Source of the DNA: Nesterenkonia salmonea
GTDB taxonomy: Bacteria > Actinomycetota > Actinomycetes > Actinomycetales > Micrococcaceae
Direction of reading: 5' to 3'
NCBI RefSeq assembly: GCF_005771525.1
Contig: NZ_VAVZ01000001.1
Location: 380-57,221 of the forward strand
Length of the DNA: 56,842 nt
Below, in pieces: positions 8,987 to 42,924 of the stretch (positions are counted from its first letter, which is position 1; each line of letters starts with the position of its first letter). Under the pieces are notes generated by a model that saw only the letters and a program-made list of their open reading frames with translations, ran no database searches and was not told the origin of the DNA. The position numbers and the translations under genes are program-made.

Positions 8987-9951
8987 TGCCGACATCTCAC
9001 CGAATGGGCATGGCTTTAGCGCTCACTGGGCTCACAGTCCTGAGTGGATGCTTCGGCGCTGAGGATTCCGCACAAAGCACTCCGGATTCCACCCAAACCC
9101 CTGCGCCGCCCCAGGAAACAGCCAGCAGTGCGACCGATGCTGACGCCGCTGTGGCCAGTGAAGAAGCCGACCATACCGAACCTACTGATGAGCCACCCAC
9201 CATCAGGGACGTCGACTTCGCAGAGCTGGAGTGGACGGAATGGGTCAACGAAGTCATTCTGACACCGTCTGAGGGAGCCGAGGGCTACCAATTTGAGGTT
9301 GGTGAGGAGGTTCACTACGCGGACGTCAATGGCGATGGTCACGACGACGCGATGGTCTCCCTGGGCCAGACCGACGAGCGCTGGGTGGAGGAGATCTGGT
9401 ACATCTGGGCCTGGGACCCAGACGCAGAAGTCGCTTATCAAGCGGGAGGACCCGTCGCCAGAGGCGCGAGCTGCGGAGACTATGTGGAGTCTGTAGCGGC
9501 CGGCGAGGATCACTTCATTATCGAAGAGCACCTCTGGCCGCAGAACGCCGACCACGACTGTGCAAGCACCCCGTCGATCCATGTCACACGGCATGTGGTG
9601 GTCGAAGACGACTGGCCGGTGATGGTCAGTCCAGTTCGGGCGCACGGCGGGATGTGTCCCCAGATCCTCGGCACTGATGACCTGTGGCCGGTCGAAGACT
9701 TTGAGTTCCGGACCTCACCGGATGATGCTGCAACTTTGGTGGGGGAACCTGAGCCCGCAGGCTTCTCGGAGGCCGATGTCTGGAGCAGACCATGGCTGTA
9801 CTACCCGAACTGGATGCTGGTCCATCTTGCCTACATGAACCCGGCTGACGGGCCGCCGGTGATTGAAGGGGACTACACCCCGTGTGGTTGGGTCTACCTC
9901 GAAGAAGATACCCGCCCCATTCCGCACGACCCCTATGTGCCCGAAGAGTAA
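8986..9951 (+). CDS. Acidic lipoprotein with Asp-rich calcium-loop motif
   Basis: A 321-residue putative lipoprotein with signal peptide and lipobox LSGC around residues 19-22, followed by a Ser/Thr/Pro/Glu-rich linker. The folded part contains YADVNGDGHDDAMVSL, a DxNxDGxxD loop like those of FG-GAP/VCBS repeats, with several Cys suited to extracytoplasmic disulfides. It overlaps the stop of the previous lipoprotein by one base (TGATG), so the two are translated together and probably work at the same cell-surface site. No enzymatic motif was recognised. Confidence 0.75.
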   Translation: MPTSHRMGMALALTGLTVLSGCFGAEDSAQSTPDSTQTPAPPQETASSATDADAAVASEEADHTEPTDEPPTIRDVDFAELEWTEWVNEVILTPSEGAEGYQFEVGEEVHYADVNGDGHDDAMVSLGQTDERWVEEIWYIWAWDPDAEVAYQAGGPVARGASCGDYVESVAAGEDHFIIEEHLWPQNADHDCASTPSIHVTRHVVVEDDWPVMVSPVRAHGGMCPQILGTDDLWPVEDFEFRTSPDDAATLVGEPEPAGFSEADVWSRPWLYYPNWMLVHLAYMNPADGPPVIEGDYTPCGWVYLEEDTRPIPHDPYVPEE

Positions 9952-10082
9952 GCCGTTGCCAAGACAGACATCAGCGAGCACCTCGACCCCTCCGTGTCAG
10001 AATCCCCTGTAAAGTGCTGACGAAATCAGCACACCACCGCACAGAGCGACTGGTGGTGGAAGCGTCAGTACCTTAACAGATA

Positions 10083-10630
10083 TTGGACAGATTCTGGATG
10101 ATCCAAGCCATTGCCTCAGTGCTTATCGTGGCAGTGTTGGTCGTATCGCTCTGGTTCAACCCCGGTCCGGAACATGCTGGCTTCACCATTGGGATAGTTT
10201 TGGTATCGGTTACTTCCGCGATCTTCCTTGGGAGCTTTCTGGCCAAAACGGCACCCCACGGTTGGTTTGTGATTTCGCACAGAACTGCCGGTCTTTTCCG
10301 TTTCGGGGCGCGTTGAGGTTCGGCCAGTTGCTCAGACGGCTGGGGTGGAATCGTGTCCTGCACGGTACATCCTCACCCGTTAGCTCTCCGTCCGATGTTG
10401 TCCATTTGGCTCCGAAACTGCGTGCCTCCGCTGCCGGTCACGCGGTGGGCGGTGTGCTGCATCTCGGGGCCGGGGTGGCAGCTCTGATAGTCGGCCAGGT
10501 GATGACTGCTGTGTGGATCCTAGTTGTGGCGGTGCCACTCCACACGTACCCGGTGATGCTGCAGCTGCTGCAGCTTCACCGCATGCAGCGGGTACTGATG
10601 GCCAGCCGAGCACGAGGGACAGAAGTCTGA
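10083..10630 (+). pseudogene. Small membrane protein broken by a frameshift, possibly CrtO-type acyltransferase
   Basis: Two overlapping frames join into one plausible protein of about 180 residues. The first (TTG 10083 or ATG 10098) has two membrane segments and runs GWFVISHRTAGLFRFG before stopping at 10316. The second, shifted, continues LRFGQLLRRLGWNRVL, has another membrane segment and ends HTYPVMLQLLQLHRMQRVL. Adding one G to the run GGGG (10305-10308) restores a single frame. The layout and the C-terminal YPVMLQ-R-RL pattern recall glycosyl-4,4'-diaponeurosporenoate acyltransferase (CrtO) proteins, but the match is only suggestive. A sequencing error in the homopolymer is as likely as true decay. 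Confidence 0.45.
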
Positions 10631-10649
10631 GCGCCCACTCACGGTGTCG

Positions 10650-12266
10650 CTAGCGGTCCAAGAACCCCTCGACATAGAGGTCATAGATCTCAGCTGCGAG
10701 CGAATCCTCGTCACCATCAGTAAGCGAGCAGACCGCAGTGATGAGCTGACCGGCGGTGTACTCACCGTCGGATGCGCCCATGAACCCTGCCGCGGCAGAA
10801 CTGATAGGGCGCGCTCGCCGCAGACCCGCACCCTGGCGGGCCATAATGACTTCCGGATGCTCGGCGCCGAACCGTTGGTACCGCTCCTCAGTGACTGTGT
10901 CCGGAACGGTGAGGGCAGCTTCAAGGACAGTGGCCAGCTCTTCCTGCGCACGGTGTGCGGTCTGAGCGATCACTGGACCTAATGGCTGCTGAATCTCCCC
11001 TGTGAGCTCCTCGAACCGCTGCCACCGACGGTGGGAGTCGGCACCCTGCAACCAGATGAACCCGAAACCGATCCTTCGCACACCCCGCGCGGCGAAGTCA
11101 GCGGCGTACTGCGCGTACCGGCGGCGGTATTCGGTGACCCCGCGCTCCTCAGAGGCGTCACGCAACCAGGTTTCGGCGTATTCCGGCGGGGACTGGGAGT
11201 CCCGCTGAATGAACCACCCGCTCAGGCCAGACTGTTCAACCCATGCCCTGGGCCGGGTGGACCAGGCGTCGTCGTCATGAGTGCTTTCCCAATTGCCGAG
11301 CAGTTGAGCTGTCCCTTGCGGGCTCAGGACCGCGGGGAGACCAGCGATGAGCTCCTGGATCAGCGCATCGCCTTCGCGCCCGCCATCGCGGTACATATAC
11401 CGGTCGGATTCAGTCTCCTCGGGCTGACGCGGGGTGATCACAAACGGCGGATTGGAGACCACTAACTCGAACCGCCGTCCGGCCACGGGCTCCAGCAGCG
11501 ACCCGTGCAGAAGCTCCACTCGATCCTCCAACCGGGCTGGATCCAGATCCAGCACAGGCGCATTGAGCCGCAGGTTGAAGCGAGCAAATTCCAGTGCGCG
11601 CTCGGAGAGATCCGTTCCCACCACATGTTCGGCATGGTCCAGTAGGTGCAGCAGCTGGATCCCGCAACCGGTGCCGATATCCAACGCCGTTGTCACCTGG
11701 CGGCGATGGGTGACCCCTGCCAAAGTCAGACTCGCCTGCCCGATGCCCAGCACGTGATCGTGCGGAAGCGCGCCCTGCAGCTGGTGGGAGCTGAGGTCGC
11801 TGCTGACCCACATATCCTGCATGCCGGCAGACGTCTCCACCTGGTATGGCTGCAGCTCACTGCGCGGCATCACCGCCCCGGTTGGCGTCACCTGGATGAG
11901 CTTCAGGCGCTCCAACCCGTGCACGCCCGTGCGGGGTAGCGCGGCCTCGACCTGATCGGCGGTGACAGGGCTGGCGACCAACCACAGGGCAGTGAGAACG
12001 GCCCGCTTCCACTGTGCCGATTGCTGCCGGGTGCCCTGGACGCGGCTGTCCTCAGCGCCGAGGAGGTCCGCGATACGCAGCTGACCAGGAACGACCTGCT
12101 CGCGGTGGAGCGCGGCCACCACATCTGCCCCCAAGAGCTCCACCAGGCCGTCATTGGTGAATCCGGCCTCCGTGAAGTCTGCACGCAGCGCTGCAATCAG
12201 AGGAAGTTCCTGGGATGCCGGCGGGGCAGGGCTCGGAGTCGCGGGGGCACTATGGGGGTGGGGCAT
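10650..12266 (-). CDS. Class I SAM-dependent methyltransferase with NPPF motif
   Basis: Three parts: an N-terminal domain of about 160 residues (DUF7059-like in related proteins), a Rossmann methyltransferase core and a C-terminal extension (DUF7782-like). SAM motif I is ALDIGTGCGIQLLHLL, motif II is VVGTDLSERAL, and the catalytic-type NPPF follows VVSN, as in HemK/RsmC-like N-methyltransferases that modify rRNA, protein or DNA. The substrate is unknown. The start is uncertain: the frame is open to a GTG at 12326, and I place it at ATG 12266 before a Pro/Ala-rich leader; neither has a convincing ribosome site. Confidence 0.82.
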   Translation of the reverse strand: MPHPHSAPATPSPAPPASQELPLIAALRADFTEAGFTNDGLVELLGADVVAALHREQVVPGQLRIADLLGAEDSRVQGTRQQSAQWKRAVLTALWLVASPVTADQVEAALPRTGVHGLERLKLIQVTPTGAVMPRSELQPYQVETSAGMQDMWVSSDLSSHQLQGALPHDHVLGIGQASLTLAGVTHRRQVTTALDIGTGCGIQLLHLLDHAEHVVGTDLSERALEFARFNLRLNAPVLDLDPARLEDRVELLHGSLLEPVAGRRFELVVSNPPFVITPRQPEETESDRYMYRDGGREGDALIQELIAGLPAVLSPQGTAQLLGNWESTHDDDAWSTRPRAWVEQSGLSGWFIQRDSQSPPEYAETWLRDASEERGVTEYRRRYAQYAADFAARGVRRIGFGFIWLQGADSHRRWQRFEELTGEIQQPLGPVIAQTAHRAQEELATVLEAALTVPDTVTEERYQRFGAEHPEVIMARQGAGLRRARPISSAAAGFMGASDGEYTAGQLITAVCSLTDGDEDSLAAEIYDLYVEGFLDR

Positions 12267-36640: not shown

Positions 36641-37318
36641 ATGGATCTCGAAGTGCTACGCCGCGCTCCACTCTTCGCCACGCTCGATGACGATGTCTTC
36701 GTAGCACTCAGCAATAAGCTCGCGGAAGTGGAGCTCTCCCGTGGAGCATCTGTGTTCCACGAAGGCGATCAGGGCGACCAGCTTTATTTCATCGTCTCCG
36801 GCAAGATCAAGCTGGGACGCTCAACCTCCGATGGTCGCGAAAACCTCCTGGCAGTCCTCGGCCCTGGAGAGATCTTCGGCGAGATGGCGCTGTTCAATCC
36901 CGCACCCCGCACCGCAACCGCCACATCAGTTTCCGAGACTCGGCTGGCTGGCCTGAAGCACCAGGATCTCCGTGATCTGATCACTGACAACCCTGAGATT
37001 TCCGTGCAGCTGCTGCAGGCTCTTGCCAAGCGTCTGACGCGCACCAATGAGTCCCTGGCCGACTTGGTCTTCTCCGATGTGCCAGGCCGTGTGGCCAAGG
37101 CTCTGCTGGATCTGGCTGACCGCTTTGGCCGCCCTGCGCCTGACGGCATCCTGGTAGCTCATGAGCTCACTCAGGAGGAGCTGGCCCAGCTGGTGGGCGC
37201 CTCCCGTGAGACCGTCAACAAGGCTTTGGCTGAGTTCGTTCAGCGCGGATGGATGCGCCTGGAAGCTCGCGCGGTCGTCATCTTGGACATTCAGCGAATC
37301 CGCCAGCGCTCCCGGTAG
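36641..37318 (+). CDS. crp: Crp/Fnr-family global regulator (GlxR/Crp type)
   Basis: A 225-residue cAMP receptor protein homologue. The nucleotide-binding domain has FHEGDQGDQLYFIVSGKIKL and the phosphate-binding cassette FGEMALFNPAPRTATATS (residues about 85-105), and the C-terminal winged helix includes LTQEELAQLVGASRETVNKA as recognition helix. It matches mycobacterial Crp (Rv3676) and corynebacterial GlxR in length and motifs. Single gene, divergent from the protease, and convergent with the ATP-grasp cluster across a short GC hairpin. Confidence 0.95.
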   Translation: MDLEVLRRAPLFATLDDDVFVALSNKLAEVELSRGASVFHEGDQGDQLYFIVSGKIKLGRSTSDGRENLLAVLGPGEIFGEMALFNPAPRTATATSVSETRLAGLKHQDLRDLITDNPEISVQLLQALAKRLTRTNESLADLVFSDVPGRVAKALLDLADRFGRPAPDGILVAHELTQEELAQLVGASRETVNKALAEFVQRGWMRLEARAVVILDIQRIRQRSR

Positions 37319-37377: not shown

Positions 37378-38619
37378 TTACGAGGCGTCGGCCCAAGTGG
37401 CGTTGGCGTACTTCTTGCGGTACCTCACTGCGCGGACGGCCAACCATGCACGCCGCAGCAGTGACGTGTCCCCGCTGTAGTACAGCGGGTTCCTGACCTT
37501 TTTCTGCCGAATCATGCGGGCGACGTCGTCGCGGACTCCTGGGGCTGTGACGTACTTGCGCAGGATGTATTGCGGCACCACGGTGAAGAGCACGTCCTTG
37601 TCCACGAACGCGCACTCTCCGGGCTCGCGCCGCTTCCCGTGGATCAGGTCCTCCACGAGATATCCGGCGAGGTTGTGTCCCTGGGCTGTGGCGTACCAGC
37701 TGGAGCGCCCCTGCCGGACGTTGACCTCAAGTACCTTGAACGCCTGATCCCGGGAATCGTATTTGATGTCAAAGTTGGCGATCCCGGTGTACCCGATGGC
37801 CTCAAGGAACTCTTTGAGCTGTGTCATGACTTCTCGGTTGAACCGAGAGATGATCGCCGTGTAGTTGCCGATTGCAGAGGCTTCATGTTCCTGGAGCAGC
37901 ACCTGGCCGAAGTTCACGAACTCAGCGCGGCCTTCGGTGTTGAGGTAGAGCACCGAGTCCCAGATGAACGTGTCGTCGCCGGGGATGAAGTCTTGGATGA
38001 TCAGCGTGCCACGGTAGCCGGAGTCGCTGATACGGGCGACGACGCTGGCCACCTCTTCTGCGGAGTTGAGCCGGTAGACCTTCTCCTGCCCGGGGAACTT
38101 ATTGCGGTAGTACTCCACGCTGTTGCCTGGTTTGAGGATCACTGGGTATCGGGTGATCGTCTCCTGGAGCTCCTCAACAGGGTCCCCCACATGGTGAATG
38201 TGAGTCTCAGGGATCTCTAGGCCGTGCTGCTGCGCCAGGGGGTAGAAAGCGTCCTTGACGTGAAGGGCGTTCAGCAGGTCCTCGGTGGGGTAGTTAAACC
38301 TGTAGAGGTCCTTCAACTGGTCGGCATTTTCTATGATCAAACGCACGTAGTGATCACTGGTGCCCACCAGCAGCAGCGGAAGGCCTTCGCGTCGCAGGCT
38401 CTGCGCATAGTCACGCAGGGCAGGGACGAACACTTCAGGCTTGTCGAGGTCCTCGACGAAGGTAGTGCTGGAGATGATCGAGGAGTAGTGCGTGAAGCCC
38501 AACTGCACTTTCCCCACCACATGCGGCTTCACACCGTAGGCCTCATGGAAGGAGGCCGCCATATGGTACGCGTTGAGGTCTGTCCCGATAATGACCGGGA
38601 GGAAGTCGTGTTCAGCCAA
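37378..38619 (-). CDS. ATP-grasp ligase A, D-aspartate-ligase-like
   Basis: A 413-residue ATP-grasp enzyme resembling the D-aspartate ligase (Aslfm) that adds D-Asp to the lysine of the peptidoglycan precursor in Enterococcus. Family landmarks: PVIIGTDLNAYHMAASFHEAYG at the N-terminus, YPVILKPGNSVEYY, IIQDFIPGDDTFIWD, YTGIANFDIKYDSRD and the metal/phosphate motif LEVNVRQGRSSWY. Cytoplasmic. Last gene of a leftward cluster, overlapping ridA by 8 bases. It is a paralogue of ligase B at 39259. Acting on a different carboxylate/amine pair remains possible. Confidence 0.75.
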   Translation of the reverse strand: MAEHDFLPVIIGTDLNAYHMAASFHEAYGVKPHVVGKVQLGFTHYSSIISSTTFVEDLDKPEVFVPALRDYAQSLRREGLPLLLVGTSDHYVRLIIENADQLKDLYRFNYPTEDLLNALHVKDAFYPLAQQHGLEIPETHIHHVGDPVEELQETITRYPVILKPGNSVEYYRNKFPGQEKVYRLNSAEEVASVVARISDSGYRGTLIIQDFIPGDDTFIWDSVLYLNTEGRAEFVNFGQVLLQEHEASAIGNYTAIISRFNREVMTQLKEFLEAIGYTGIANFDIKYDSRDQAFKVLEVNVRQGRSSWYATAQGHNLAGYLVEDLIHGKRREPGECAFVDKDVLFTVVPQYILRKYVTAPGVRDDVARMIRQKKVRNPLYYSGDTSLLRRAWLAVRAVRYRKKYANATWADAS

Positions 38620-39070
38620 TGTGTGCGATCAGGTCCACTTCGACAGGTGTGTTCAGCGGCAGCACCGGAACCCCTACAGCACTGCGGGCGTGGACCCCTG
38701 CTTCGCCGAATGCTTGGCCCAGAATCTCAGACGCGCCGTTGATTACCTGAGGTTGACCGGTGAAGTCCGGGGCGGACGCCACGAACCCGCCTACTTTCGC
38801 AATCCGGACAATGCTGTCCAGGTCCACGACGGTTTTCAATGCAGCAATAAGGTTCAGGCCGCACTGTTTGGCCAGCTCGTAGGCCTGCTCTGGAGTGACC
38901 TCAGCGCCGACTTTGCCTTCGGCTGGGAGCTCACCGCCCACTAGGGGCAGTTGCCCGGAGACGTAGACAACCTTGTCGACGACGACCGCAGGCTGATAGT
39001 CAGCCACAGGCGGCACCACCTGGGGGACGGTGAGGCCCAGCGCGGAAAGACGTTCTTCTACCGTGGACAT
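38612..39070 (-). CDS. ridA: RidA-family protein (reactive imine/enamine deaminase)
   Basis: A 152-residue YjgF/YER057c/UK114 protein. Such proteins hydrolyse reactive enamine/imine intermediates from PLP enzymes and amino acid oxidases. VVYVSGQLPLVGGELP, IVRIAKVGGFVASAPDF and RSAVGVPVLPLNTPVEVDLIA are characteristic of the longer actinobacterial branch (Rv3678c type), where the canonical catalytic Arg near the C-terminus is replaced by Val/Leu residues. ATG 39070 has GGAG six bases upstream; the open frame begins earlier. It sits between DUF4177 and ligase A. Confidence 0.9.
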   Translation of the reverse strand: MSTVEERLSALGLTVPQVVPPVADYQPAVVVDKVVYVSGQLPLVGGELPAEGKVGAEVTPEQAYELAKQCGLNLIAALKTVVDLDSIVRIAKVGGFVASAPDFTGQPQVINGASEILGQAFGEAGVHARSAVGVPVLPLNTPVEVDLIAHIG

Positions 39071-39084
39071 TGCCGTCTCCTGAT

Positions 39085-39249
39085 CTACTGTTTGGGTCGC
39101 TTCAGGTATGCCACCGGGGCGTTGCCGTCCGGCCCAGGAAGAACTGTGACCAGTTCCCAGCCGTCGTCTCCCCACTGGTCAAGGATGCCCTTGGTGTTGT
39201 GAATAATGAGCGGAATAGTGGCGTACTCCCACTGTGTCATTTCAGCCAT
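39085..39249 (-). CDS. DUF4177-family microprotein
   Basis: A 54-residue protein: MAEMTQWEYATIPLI, then GILDQWGDDGWELVTVLPGP and a basic end AYLKRPKQ. The WEY...L..WG.DGWELV pattern is that of DUF4177 proteins, which in actinobacteria are usually encoded directly upstream of ridA near crp. It starts at ATG 39249 (or 39240), 9 bases after the ligase B stop, and ends 14 bases before the ridA start. Function unknown. Confidence 0.8.
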   Translation of the reverse strand: MAEMTQWEYATIPLIIHNTKGILDQWGDDGWELVTVLPGPDGNAPVAYLKRPKQ

Positions 39250-39258
39250 AGCCTCAGC

Positions 39259-40515
39259 CTAACTCAGACCGTCTCTCCACGTGGAGGCCGCGTACTTCTT
39301 TCCTTGACGGAAGTGCCGGCCGGCCAGGTAGGCGAGGCGTTTCGGTGAGCGGTCTGCCCGGTACCACAGGGGGTTGGTGGCTTTGCCCTGTTTGATGAGC
39401 CGGTTCACTTCACTGCGCACTTCTGGGTTGGTGACGTATTTGCGCAGGATGTAGCGCGGGGCCACGTGGAACAGCGCATCTCCCTCAGCCAGGGTCAGTT
39501 TTTTGCGCTGCCCGTATACGAGGTCGTCGACGAGGTATTTCATCACTGGGTGACCCAGGAGGGCGGTGTAGTAGCTGGATCGGCCGGGGCGGGCGTTGAT
39601 CTCCATGACCTTGTACTTGCGGTCGCGGGGGTCGAATTTGATGTCCACATTGGCCACACCGGTGTAGCCGACCGCTTCGAGGAAGTTCTTGTAGGTGAGC
39701 ATCAGAGATTCGTCGTACCGGGAGAGGATGGCGGTGTATGAGCCCACCAGGTGTGATTCGTGTTCCTGCAGAGCGACCCGACCCAAAGTCACCAACTCAC
39801 AGGTGCCCTCGGTGTTCACGTAGAGGACGGAGTCCCAAATATTGGTGTCGTCTCCGGGGATGAACTCTTGGATGATGAGTGCCCCGCGGTAATCGGAGGC
39901 TTCCACTGCGGCAACCACATCGGCGACCTCTTTGACGGTGGTGAGCCGGTAGACCTTCTTATGGCCAGCGATCTTGTGCTGGTTCATCCACCACTGGTTG
40001 GGGTTCGCCGGTTTGATGATGACCGGGAAGCGGTCCACTTCAAGCTCGAACGGTTCACCAATCTGGTGCACCTGAGTTTCCGGGATGTCCACTCCGTGTT
40101 CGGCAGCCATCTCGTAGAATCGCTGTTTGTCCATAAATTTCTGACGCACTGGCTCAGCTGGGGTGTTCATCAGGTAGTGCTCGGCAAGCACCTCCCGGTG
40201 GCGGCTGACCAGCTCCACGTAGATGTCAGTGCTGGGCACCAACAGCAGGGGCACCTGGTAGTCGGCACTGAGTTGCCGGGCCCGATCGGTGAGGATTCGG
40301 ACGAAGGCGTCGTCGTCGGTGATGTCCTCATGGAGTTCCATCGCCAGGATGGTGCTGTCCCATGTGAAGCCAAGTTTGATTTTCCCGATCATCAGCGGCT
40401 TGACGCCGTAGGTCTCGTGGAAGCTCCGGGCATGGGTGTAGCCGTGGATATTTGTGCCGAGGATGACCGGGAGGAACCCGGCCCTCTGGGCGGCCTGAAC
40501 ATCGTGTGAAGTCAC
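39259..40515 (-). CDS. ATP-grasp ligase B, D-aspartate-ligase-like paralogue
   Basis: A 418-residue paralogue of ligase A, collinear over the full length: FLPVILGTNIHGYTHARSFHETYG, FPVIIKPANPNQWWMN, IIQEFIPGDDTNIWDSVLY, YTGVANVDIKFDPRD, MEINARPGRSSYY. The putative substrate loop differs (NPNQWW against NSVEYY in A), as does the metal motif (NARPGRSS against NVRQGRSS), so different substrates are likely. GTG start with GAGG upstream. First gene of the leftward cluster B-DUF4177-ridA-A and divergent from the PBP gene. Confidence 0.75.
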   Translation of the reverse strand: MTSHDVQAAQRAGFLPVILGTNIHGYTHARSFHETYGVKPLMIGKIKLGFTWDSTILAMELHEDITDDDAFVRILTDRARQLSADYQVPLLLVPSTDIYVELVSRHREVLAEHYLMNTPAEPVRQKFMDKQRFYEMAAEHGVDIPETQVHQIGEPFELEVDRFPVIIKPANPNQWWMNQHKIAGHKKVYRLTTVKEVADVVAAVEASDYRGALIIQEFIPGDDTNIWDSVLYVNTEGTCELVTLGRVALQEHESHLVGSYTAILSRYDESLMLTYKNFLEAVGYTGVANVDIKFDPRDRKYKVMEINARPGRSSYYTALLGHPVMKYLVDDLVYGQRKKLTLAEGDALFHVAPRYILRKYVTNPEVRSEVNRLIKQGKATNPLWYRADRSPKRLAYLAGRHFRQGKKYAASTWRDGLS

Positions 40516-40674: not shown

Positions 40675-42924
40675 ATGGCTTCCCGCAAATCCCCTCTTTT
40701 TGACACGGCTACCACCGTGGGCAAAATCATGTCCTTCCTGGGTGTCAGCGCACTCTGTGGCCTTCTAGCAGCCGGTCTCGTCTTCCCCCTCGCAGCCACT
40801 GGTGGTGCCGCTGCATCAGCCGGAGGCGACATCCTCCACGAGGTCCCCGCGGAGCTTCAAGAGGAGCCACTGTCGACTCCTTCGCATATGTACGCCAGCG
40901 ATGGGGAGACACTCATCGCCACGTTCTACGCGGAGAATCGTGTGCCTGTTGACCTTGAAGACGTCTCACAGGAAATGAAGGACGCGATCATCGCCATTGA
41001 GGACGAGCGCTTCTACGACCACGGGGGCGTAGACGCGCAGGGCGTGGCACGCGCCGCAGTCCACAACTTCACTGCTTCTACTCAGCAGGGCGCCTCCACG
41101 CTTACCATGCAGTACGTCAACAATGTGCTGAACAACGCTGCGGTGGTTTCCGGTGAGGGTAACTTCTTGGCCGCGGGCATCCAGGAGAAGACATACGCCG
41201 ATAAATTGCGGGAAATGAAGCTTGCCGTCCAGGTCGAGCAGGAAATGACCAAGGACGAGATCCTCGAGGGCTACCTCAACATCGTGATGCTGGGCGGCCG
41301 AAACTACGGTGTGGAGGCCGCTGCGCAGTTCTACTGGGGCGTGTCCGCCTCAGAGCTGGATTACCAGCAGGCAGCCACATTGGCCGGGCTCGTTCAGGCT
41401 CCCAACTTCTACCGTCCGGACATCCAAGACAACGTGGAGCGTGCTGAAACTCGCCGCAACACGGTGCTGCGGAACATGTTGATCCACGACTTCATCACCG
41501 ACGATGAGTACGAGGAAGCGATAGCAATCGATCTCGGTGAAAGTTTGGAGATTCAGTCTAGCGAGGTCGGCTGTATCGCCGCTGAGTTCGGAGAGTACTT
41601 CTGCGACTACGCCATTCACGACTTCACACAAAATGAGGCATTCGGCGAAGATGAGCAGGAACGCGCAGAACTTCTGGCCCGTGGGGGTCTCCGGATTGTC
41701 ACGACGCTTGATCCGGATATGCAGCGCCAGGCCGAGGAAACCGTGATGGATCACCAGCCACGGGGCACCGAAGCAGCCGCGCTGCTCAACTCCATGGACC
41801 CAGAGACGGGCAACATCCTCGCGATGGCCCAGTCCACCACTTACGATCCGAACGACGAGAGTGACGACTGGAACTCCACGTCCCTCAATATGAATGCCGG
41901 CTCTTCACACGGCGGCAGCAACGGTTTCCAGGGGGGCTCCATCCTCAAACCGTTTGTTGCAGCAGCTTGGGTAGAAGAGGGCAATGACATGGACGACCGC
42001 GTCGACGCCGACCAAACTGAGTACGAATATGGCGAGCGGTGGCAGGCCAGTTGCATGCCTGGTGGTTCCGTGACGCTCCTGCAGGGTGAGGGCGATGAAG
42101 ACGTCTACTCAATCTCCAACGTGTTGGATGACACCGAACGTGAAATGACCGTGGACTGGGGCCTGTTCCACTCGATCAACACTGCCACAATGGCTACCGC
42201 GAACGACATGGATCTGTGCGCCATTACCGACCTCACAGATCGCCTCGGCATCCAAGGAACCAGCGAAGGCACTGAGCTTGGTCCGCTTCGCCCTGACACG
42301 CCTTCATTCGTTCTGGGGGCCGTCTCTGTGACCCCGCTGGTGATGAACCGTGCTTATGCGGCCTTCGCCAATGACGGAACCATCTGCACCCCTCGGTCAA
42401 TCCTCGAGGTCACTGACGCTCATGGCAACGAGTACGACCTGCCTGAGGCGGACTGCGAGGAGGTCGTTGACCCTGATGTCGTGGCACAGGTCAACGACAC
42501 GATGATCAACATTGCTGAGCAGAACCTCTACGTCGGCGAACGTGACGGTGACGCACCCTTCCCCATGGCTGGGAAGACGGGTACTAACCACACGGCCTCT
42601 GGCATGTCTTTCCAGGGTTACACCGAGGGTGTAGCCACCAGCGCCTATGTCACCAGGATCAACGACAACAGCTCACTGTGGTCTAACGGCAACGTGCCTG
42701 ACGAGACGTACGCCGGTACCATCGCCTTCCCGCTCTGGTACGACTACATGCGTGAAGTTGCACCCACTCGGGCCACTGGTGACTTCCCGGAGGCCAGGAA
42801 CTCTCCTTTCAATGAGCGGCGCTCCGGATATGGCGGTCGCTACGCGATGTCCGAGCTGGGCTCAGGCAGCGGAAGCAGCTCCAGCGACGACGACGATAAC
42901 GGCGACAACGACGATGACGACTGA
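40675..42924 (+). CDS. Class A penicillin-binding protein (transglycosylase/transpeptidase)
   Basis: A 749-residue bifunctional cell-wall synthase anchored by one N-terminal helix. The GT51 glycosyltransferase domain has IIAIEDERFYDHGGVDAQG and GASTLTMQYVNN, with the second Glu in GYLNIVMLG. The transpeptidase domain has the SxxK motif as GGSILKPF, the SxN motif in HSINTATM, and KTG in MAGKTGTNHTASG. The C-terminus is low-complexity Ser/Asp, with no PASTA domain. It corresponds to mycobacterial PonA2 by position. The metallophosphoesterase follows. Confidence 0.95.
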   Translation: MASRKSPLFDTATTVGKIMSFLGVSALCGLLAAGLVFPLAATGGAAASAGGDILHEVPAELQEEPLSTPSHMYASDGETLIATFYAENRVPVDLEDVSQEMKDAIIAIEDERFYDHGGVDAQGVARAAVHNFTASTQQGASTLTMQYVNNVLNNAAVVSGEGNFLAAGIQEKTYADKLREMKLAVQVEQEMTKDEILEGYLNIVMLGGRNYGVEAAAQFYWGVSASELDYQQAATLAGLVQAPNFYRPDIQDNVERAETRRNTVLRNMLIHDFITDDEYEEAIAIDLGESLEIQSSEVGCIAAEFGEYFCDYAIHDFTQNEAFGEDEQERAELLARGGLRIVTTLDPDMQRQAEETVMDHQPRGTEAAALLNSMDPETGNILAMAQSTTYDPNDESDDWNSTSLNMNAGSSHGGSNGFQGGSILKPFVAAAWVEEGNDMDDRVDADQTEYEYGERWQASCMPGGSVTLLQGEGDEDVYSISNVLDDTEREMTVDWGLFHSINTATMATANDMDLCAITDLTDRLGIQGTSEGTELGPLRPDTPSFVLGAVSVTPLVMNRAYAAFANDGTICTPRSILEVTDAHGNEYDLPEADCEEVVDPDVVAQVNDTMINIAEQNLYVGERDGDAPFPMAGKTGTNHTASGMSFQGYTEGVATSAYVTRINDNSSLWSNGNVPDETYAGTIAFPLWYDYMREVAPTRATGDFPEARNSPFNERRSGYGGRYAMSELGSGSGSSSSDDDDNGDNDDDD

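Follow-up and report, generated by a model that had tools for sequence, protein, structure and literature searches.

A 56,842-nucleotide stretch of the Nesterenkonia salmonea genome (contig NZ_VAVZ01000001.1, positions 380 to 57,221 of the forward strand; hereafter the window) carries two ATP-grasp ligase genes, ligA and ligB, that enclose a DUF4177-like gene and a ridA-like gene and diverge from a class A penicillin-binding protein (PBP) gene. The best explanation of this locus, which we favor with modest confidence, is that LigA and LigB build a peptidoglycan cross-bridge one residue after the other, with RidA and DUF4177 as bystanders. On the reverse strand, ligB (39259-40515; GTG start, 418 amino acids), the second ATP-grasp ligase gene, is followed by the DUF4177-like gene of the Sp36 family (39085-39249; 54 amino acids), its old partner ridA (38612-39067; 151 amino acids counted from the ATG), and ligA (37378-38619; TTG start, 413 amino acids), which encodes an ATP-grasp ligase of the D-aspartate-ligase type. 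The PBP gene (40675-42924, forward strand), whose PBP domains were recognized by hidden Markov model (HMM), diverges from ligB; a crp-like regulator gene (36641-37318, forward strand) converges on ligA and bounds the slot after ridA. The TTG is the best-fitting ligA start for N. haasae, N. sphaerica, and N. natronophila as well. The first-pass annotation had described two full-length ligase paralogues around a DUF4177-ridA pair, divergent from a PBP gene, and all genes are where it placed them. Its spacing or overlap of 8-14 bases fits the 9-base gap between ligB and the DUF4177-like gene and the 8-base overlap of ridA and ligA, but not the 17-base gap between the DUF4177-like gene and ridA.

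The block is kept in N. haasae (G007), N. sphaerica (G027), N. sedimenti (G020), N. muleiensis (G014), and N. natronophila, whose ligases are 82-95% identical to those of the window. Relative to these five species, the ratio of nonsynonymous to synonymous substitution rates (dN/dS) is 0.04-0.13 for LigA and 0.05-0.15 for LigB, and it is 0.18-0.33 relative to the more distant G003, G006 (N. ebinurensis), and G016 (N. populi). LigB is under purifying selection, and because the block is conserved in five other species and dN/dS is low, the arrangement is not due to chance. Base composition gives no clear signal of recent acquisition, as GC content is 0.595 for ligA (0.807 at third codon positions) and 0.592 for ligB (0.783), against 0.625 for the window. 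A scan of promoters and terminators yielded about as many candidates as in shuffled sequence.

LigA and LigB are ∼50% identical and are the sole matches to their family found in the N. salmonea genome (G000; 3.28 Mb, 98.5% complete). Their alignment contains the common motifs IPGDD, YTG[IV]AN, and GRSS and the unlike loops NSVEYY and NPNQWW that had been reported earlier, with a two-residue insertion in LigB at this loop. Residues K163, K180, D288, E298, N300, and R302 (LigA numbering), which we take to have roles in binding ATP and Mg, are invariant across alignments of 70 and 64 sequences and kept in both proteins. In HMM scans, LigA has weak generic ATP-grasp matches, none above any curated cut-off of Pfam or NCBIfam; LigB is slightly above the gathering score for ATP-grasp_3 and CPSase_L_D2, each over part of the protein, and far under every NCBIfam cut-off. 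By the first-pass annotation's own account, grouping with carbamoyl-phosphate ligases would count against its interpretation; similarity to carbamoyl-phosphate synthase is weak and partial only, and this identity was rejected, as was that of another named ligase. Database relatives at an E-value of 1e-5 number 1335 for LigA and 334 for LigB. Among the best 120 of each, most are nameless and the rest are called D-aspartate ligase, carboxylate-amine ligase, ATP-grasp protein, or hypothetical protein. The name D-aspartate ligase, assigned to some relatives by NCBI or JGI, is a database name and not the outcome of an experiment.

In a midpoint-rooted tree of 78 ligases, LigA (16 rows, support 100/99) and LigB (13 rows, 100/100) form separate groups, and LigB together with the N. 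alba (G002) ligase forms a group of 15 rows (100/99). Of 288 database proteins retrieved, 38 were included, among them P0229 and P0269, which NCBI names D-aspartate ligase; a broken LigB (G015, N. pannonica) and a truncated ligase (G001) were left out, and the program flagged long branches. The LigA and LigB groups cluster, with a few others, near sequences of Planococcus, Enterococcus timonensis, and lactobacilli. Ligases of other Nesterenkonia, here called type C, are a separate group of 15 rows (100/100). Among the relatives listed, the LigB clade consists only of part of Nesterenkonia and metagenome proteins.

The substrate pocket of LigB has probably changed while its catalytic core was kept. 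At 20 positions that are at least 85% conserved in 40 non-LigB sequences, the family residue is absent from all 15 LigB sequences. Among these clade-specific changes are R93 to E, N16 to H, G86-T87 to P-S, Y170 to W, N252 to S, Q303 to P, and N316 to P. By analogy with other ATP-grasp ligases, we infer that the changed positions line the substrate pocket, and LigB likely handles a different building block from that of LigA. The 20 changes would also suit a LigB that is no bridge enzyme at all and makes another peptide (an osmolyte, a polymer modification, or a small metabolite), its position being a consequence of duplication in situ. The generic nature of the HMM matches and the occurrence of family relatives in genera not known to have a bridge are consistent with this. 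We consider it unlikely, given that the locus has no biosynthetic neighbors, that LigB is kin to ligases with bridge-type gene context, and that its position by the PBP gene is conserved: of 30 Nesterenkonia genomes, nine have ligB (a broken copy in G015), as does the N. natronophila locus, and it adjoins the PBP gene without exception.

Ligases are inserted and exchanged at an old DUF4177-ridA pair. Twenty other genera were sampled with one genome each, and the 1.5 kb flanking ridA on both sides was viewed. The PBP, DUF4177, and ridA genes are together in 20 of 20 with no ligase in view (12 of these genomes encode a ligase at another location and in 8 none was found), and crp follows in 19. 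The DUF4177-ridA pair therefore predates the arrival of the ligases. Across these genera, the PBP gene adjoins the DUF4177 gene, and ∼1 kb of other sequence or almost nothing separates ridA from crp; in one Micrococcaceae genus the gene in this interval (L161:1934-2935) reads as a Nudix-type hydrolase. The window thus has the same PBP, DUF4177, ridA, and crp backbone as the ponA2-DUF4177-ridA-crp region of actinobacteria, of which we take Mycobacterium tuberculosis to have a version, but differs in having ligases that flank DUF4177-ridA on both sides.

Within Nesterenkonia, a same-strand ligase lies directly after ridA in 25 of the 29 genomes in which the region was seen. This slot is occupied by a window-type LigA (at least 73% identity) in nine, a LigA variant in four, the N. 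alba type in one, the N. marinintestina (G013) type in one, and type C in ten. That such unlike ligases occupy the same slot implies that they were inserted and exchanged there. The slot is empty in G001, G008, G021, and G029, with just 100-233 bases from ridA to crp; in G008 and G021 the ligase is instead within 1 kb of the gene for FemX, a Fem-family enzyme. Genome G010, which is 79% complete, has no match for a ligase or for ridA. N. ebinurensis has three ligases, in the order ligA variant, ridA, DUF4177, type C, ligB (L061:8356-12930), and a femX at another location; this arrangement appears to be an intermediate stage in ligase displacement.

The first-pass annotation had RidA clearing imines that arise in D-amino acid metabolism on behalf of the ligases. 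Tight spacing, a shared direction, and the ligase directly after ridA in most Nesterenkonia are in keeping with joint action of RidA and DUF4177 with the ligases. We nevertheless regard it as very improbable, and rejected the two as functional partners, as the PBP-DUF4177-ridA arrangement exists without an adjacent ligase in all 20 other genera, four Nesterenkonia have ridA with an empty slot, and unlike ligase types occupy that slot. The ridA gene is close enough to the ligase genes to be cotranscribed with them, but a functional tie is probably absent. The RidA-like protein (PF14588/PF01042) matches PF14588 at 1.7e-21, and the 54-amino acid protein scores 19.7 bits, below the Pfam DUF4177 cut-off of 25 bits, and passes the NCBIfam cut-off for Sp36_fam.

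The ligase type of a genome coincides with the presence or absence of FemX. We counted orthologous FemX, defined by a best-match identity of at least 56%, in the 26 of 30 genomes that are at least 90% complete; G008, G010, G015, and G028 were left out, and the FemX search did not extend to N. natronophila. All nine genomes with a window-type LigA lack orthologous FemX, and all 17 with other ligase types have it (56-100% identity). Seven of the nine have no PF02388 match of any kind. N. salmonea is among these, and it has no match to a Nesterenkonia FemX either. Nevertheless, the association is suggestive and not significant: LigA type and FemX yield only three independent contrasts on the locus tree, each of the expected sign (p 0.25), and when the trait is the absence of any PF02388 match, two contrasts agree and one does not differ (p 0.5). 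LigB does not follow the same pattern. It co-occurs with FemX in G003, G006, and G016, so it is not a simple replacement of FemX and was ruled out as the correlate of FemX absence. In G005, G011, and G025, LigA is present without LigB or any Fem.

These patterns would also fit LigA and LigB both being bridge ligases that do not act in succession, with LigB serving another condition or acceptor and one ligase-added residue present at a time. Genomes with LigA alone and no Fem and those with LigB alongside FemX are as expected from such a division of labor, and the changes in LigB suit an altered acceptor as well as an altered donor. Selection on LigB that is about as strong as that on LigA, together with the persistent location of ligB by the PBP gene, argues for steady use and makes this account possible but clearly less probable than successive addition.

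The gene context of relatives supports a cross-bridge role for the wider ligase family. Across Micrococcaceae, a ligase match is present in 94 of 295 genomes and 13 of 31 genera; in this survey, which scored at most six candidates per genome, no second full-length copy is listed outside Nesterenkonia. In 12 of 20 regions, representing 7 of 12 other Micrococcaceae genera, femX is at most 200 bases from the ligase gene. It is not shown in the remaining eight, and since five of the 20 regions (L137, L138, L140, L148, and L152) are short or cut by a contig end, FemX could be missed in them. Likewise, in N. populi seven bases separate the end of femX from the same-strand ligA. These FemX and ligase pairs, which presumably make A4alpha-type bridges, involve the same ligase family in the same bacterial family as the window. 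But they have one distant, type C2-like ligase, whereas the window has two ligases and no FemX was found in its genome.

In distant loci from metagenome-assembled genomes (MAGs) of Bacillota, the ligase gene comes after an alanine-racemase-type gene (HMM match to Alr in 5 of 5 scanned) and before an asparagine synthase gene (AsnB in 4 of 4 scanned). These are from 13 Bacillota-type MAG loci, with L018-L020 left out and gene size as the sole criterion for L012, L014, L016, L017, and L021; in L011, no gene of AsnB size and strand adjoins the ligase gene. In several MAGs (L013, and by gene size L014, L016, L017, and L021; around 9,090-11,450), alr-ligase-asnB is followed by genes for an ATP-binding cassette (ABC) transporter ATPase, with HMM matches in L013, L014, and L017, and for a protein of ∼531-540 amino acids, which in L013 has no Pfam or NCBIfam match. 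The FemX, racemase, and asparagine synthase neighbors of the wider family support the part of the first-pass annotation that gave the ligases a role in cross-bridges, though not the part that involved RidA.

The D-Asp bridge of Lactococcus lactis is made with racD, aslA, and asnH, according to passages of PMC4155827. The window ligases are of the same ATP-grasp carboxylate-amine ligase kind as AslA of L. lactis and Aslfm of Enterococcus faecium, a likeness that rests on database names and on the racemase and asparagine synthase genes beside the Bacillota relatives. Unlike those systems, the window has two paralogues in one locus, no adjoining racemase gene or asnH, and a LigB altered at 20 conserved positions. 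As set out in parts of PMC2922099, ATP-grasp ligases make bridges of D-residues and Fem enzymes make bridges of Gly and L-residues. The bridge of N. jeotgali CD08_7 is L-Lys-Gly-D-Asp, as stated in a portion of PMC5288335.

In the proposed mechanism, LigA and LigB would be cytoplasmic ATP-grasp ligases that make the peptidoglycan cross-bridge. LigA would convert the carboxyl group of an acidic amino acid, probably a D-enantiomer, to an acyl phosphate and then join the residue straight to the epsilon-amine of the stem-peptide lysine, making FemX dispensable. This step is predicted to replace the route of other Nesterenkonia, which have FemX and a type C ligase. LigB, as a diverged paralogue with an altered pocket, would most likely extend the bridge by a second residue, attached to the amine that the LigA product offers; the successive addition that the first-pass annotation proposed is plausible. 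Both ligase genes would have joined an older DUF4177-ridA pair at a site of bridge-ligase exchange, with RidA and DUF4177 as bystanders.

Besides the nonsignificant contrasts and the co-occurrence of LigB and FemX, several observations weigh against this mechanism. G007 and G017, which have a window-type LigA, encode a distant Fem (31-34% identity) that branches far outside orthologous FemX and might serve in its place. Gene calls and an HMM scan of the window revealed no racemase gene in the locus. The racemase next to the Bacillota relatives is of the alanine-racemase and not the RacD type, so this neighbor does not prove use of D-Asp. Some of the 20 changes in LigB are conservative (I95V, I250V, and V299I), and on a similar count the LigA variant has 12 clade-specific changes. 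The tree does not settle how LigA, LigB, and the N. marinintestina type branched from one another (88/94). Relatives of LigA with 50-54% identity occur in Oceanobacillus (P0075), Virgibacillus (P0229), and Paenibacillus (P. alkaliterrae, P0119), genera in which meso-diaminopimelate is cross-linked directly. Lastly, a literature search that covered portions of papers, including PMC5288335, PMC8875376, PMC6113628, PMC4786123, and PMC4698737, found no enzyme activity, bridge, or wall composition for LigB-bearing species.

The successive action of LigA and LigB predicts a one-residue bridge in G005, G011, and G025, which have LigA only and no Fem, and a longer bridge in the species of the window. 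If glycine is found in the bridge of species lacking FemX, one of the two ligases would have to add it without tRNA. We entertain, as an unlikely extension, that LigB, once a ligase of acidic D-amino acids, now ligates a neutral residue such as glycine independently of tRNA, that FemX-less Nesterenkonia make a two-residue, Gly-containing bridge by ATP-grasp enzymes alone, and that exchange in the slot after ridA swaps whole bridge chemistries. An ATP-grasp bridge ligase that adds Gly, if real, would break the rule that Gly requires Fem and tRNA.

Bridge type has long been used as a marker in bacterial taxonomy. In the portions of the literature searched, no paper was found that identifies by name the ligases behind the A4-type walls of Actinomycetota. 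With FemX missing in some species, ligases exchanged in one slot, and a changed paralogue, Nesterenkonia offers natural comparisons among cultured species. Gene content here predicts bridge composition sharply, and genomes could come to reveal bridge type.

Other genes of the Fem and racemase kinds were seen elsewhere in these genomes. In N. haasae, the distant Fem-family gene overlaps a flippase-like gene (L087:9746-12348) and belongs to a deep clade that also contains the G017 and G028 genes. In N. salmonea, two tandem PF13480 (GNAT/Fem-like) proteins are encoded beside PIG-L-type deacetylase-, glycosyltransferase-, and polysaccharide deacetylase-like genes (L092:4544-6936, on contig G000:C52); they were considered as a hidden FemX and rejected for their location among polysaccharide-type genes. 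Asp/Glu racemases were likewise rejected as a marker of LigB, with PF01177 matches in 29 of 30 genomes and no pattern with LigB by eye. N. salmonea also has a second, short MurI-like racemase (224 amino acids) beside an Lrp-type-like regulator gene (L093:7312-7986, on contig G000:C75), unlinked to the ligase genes.

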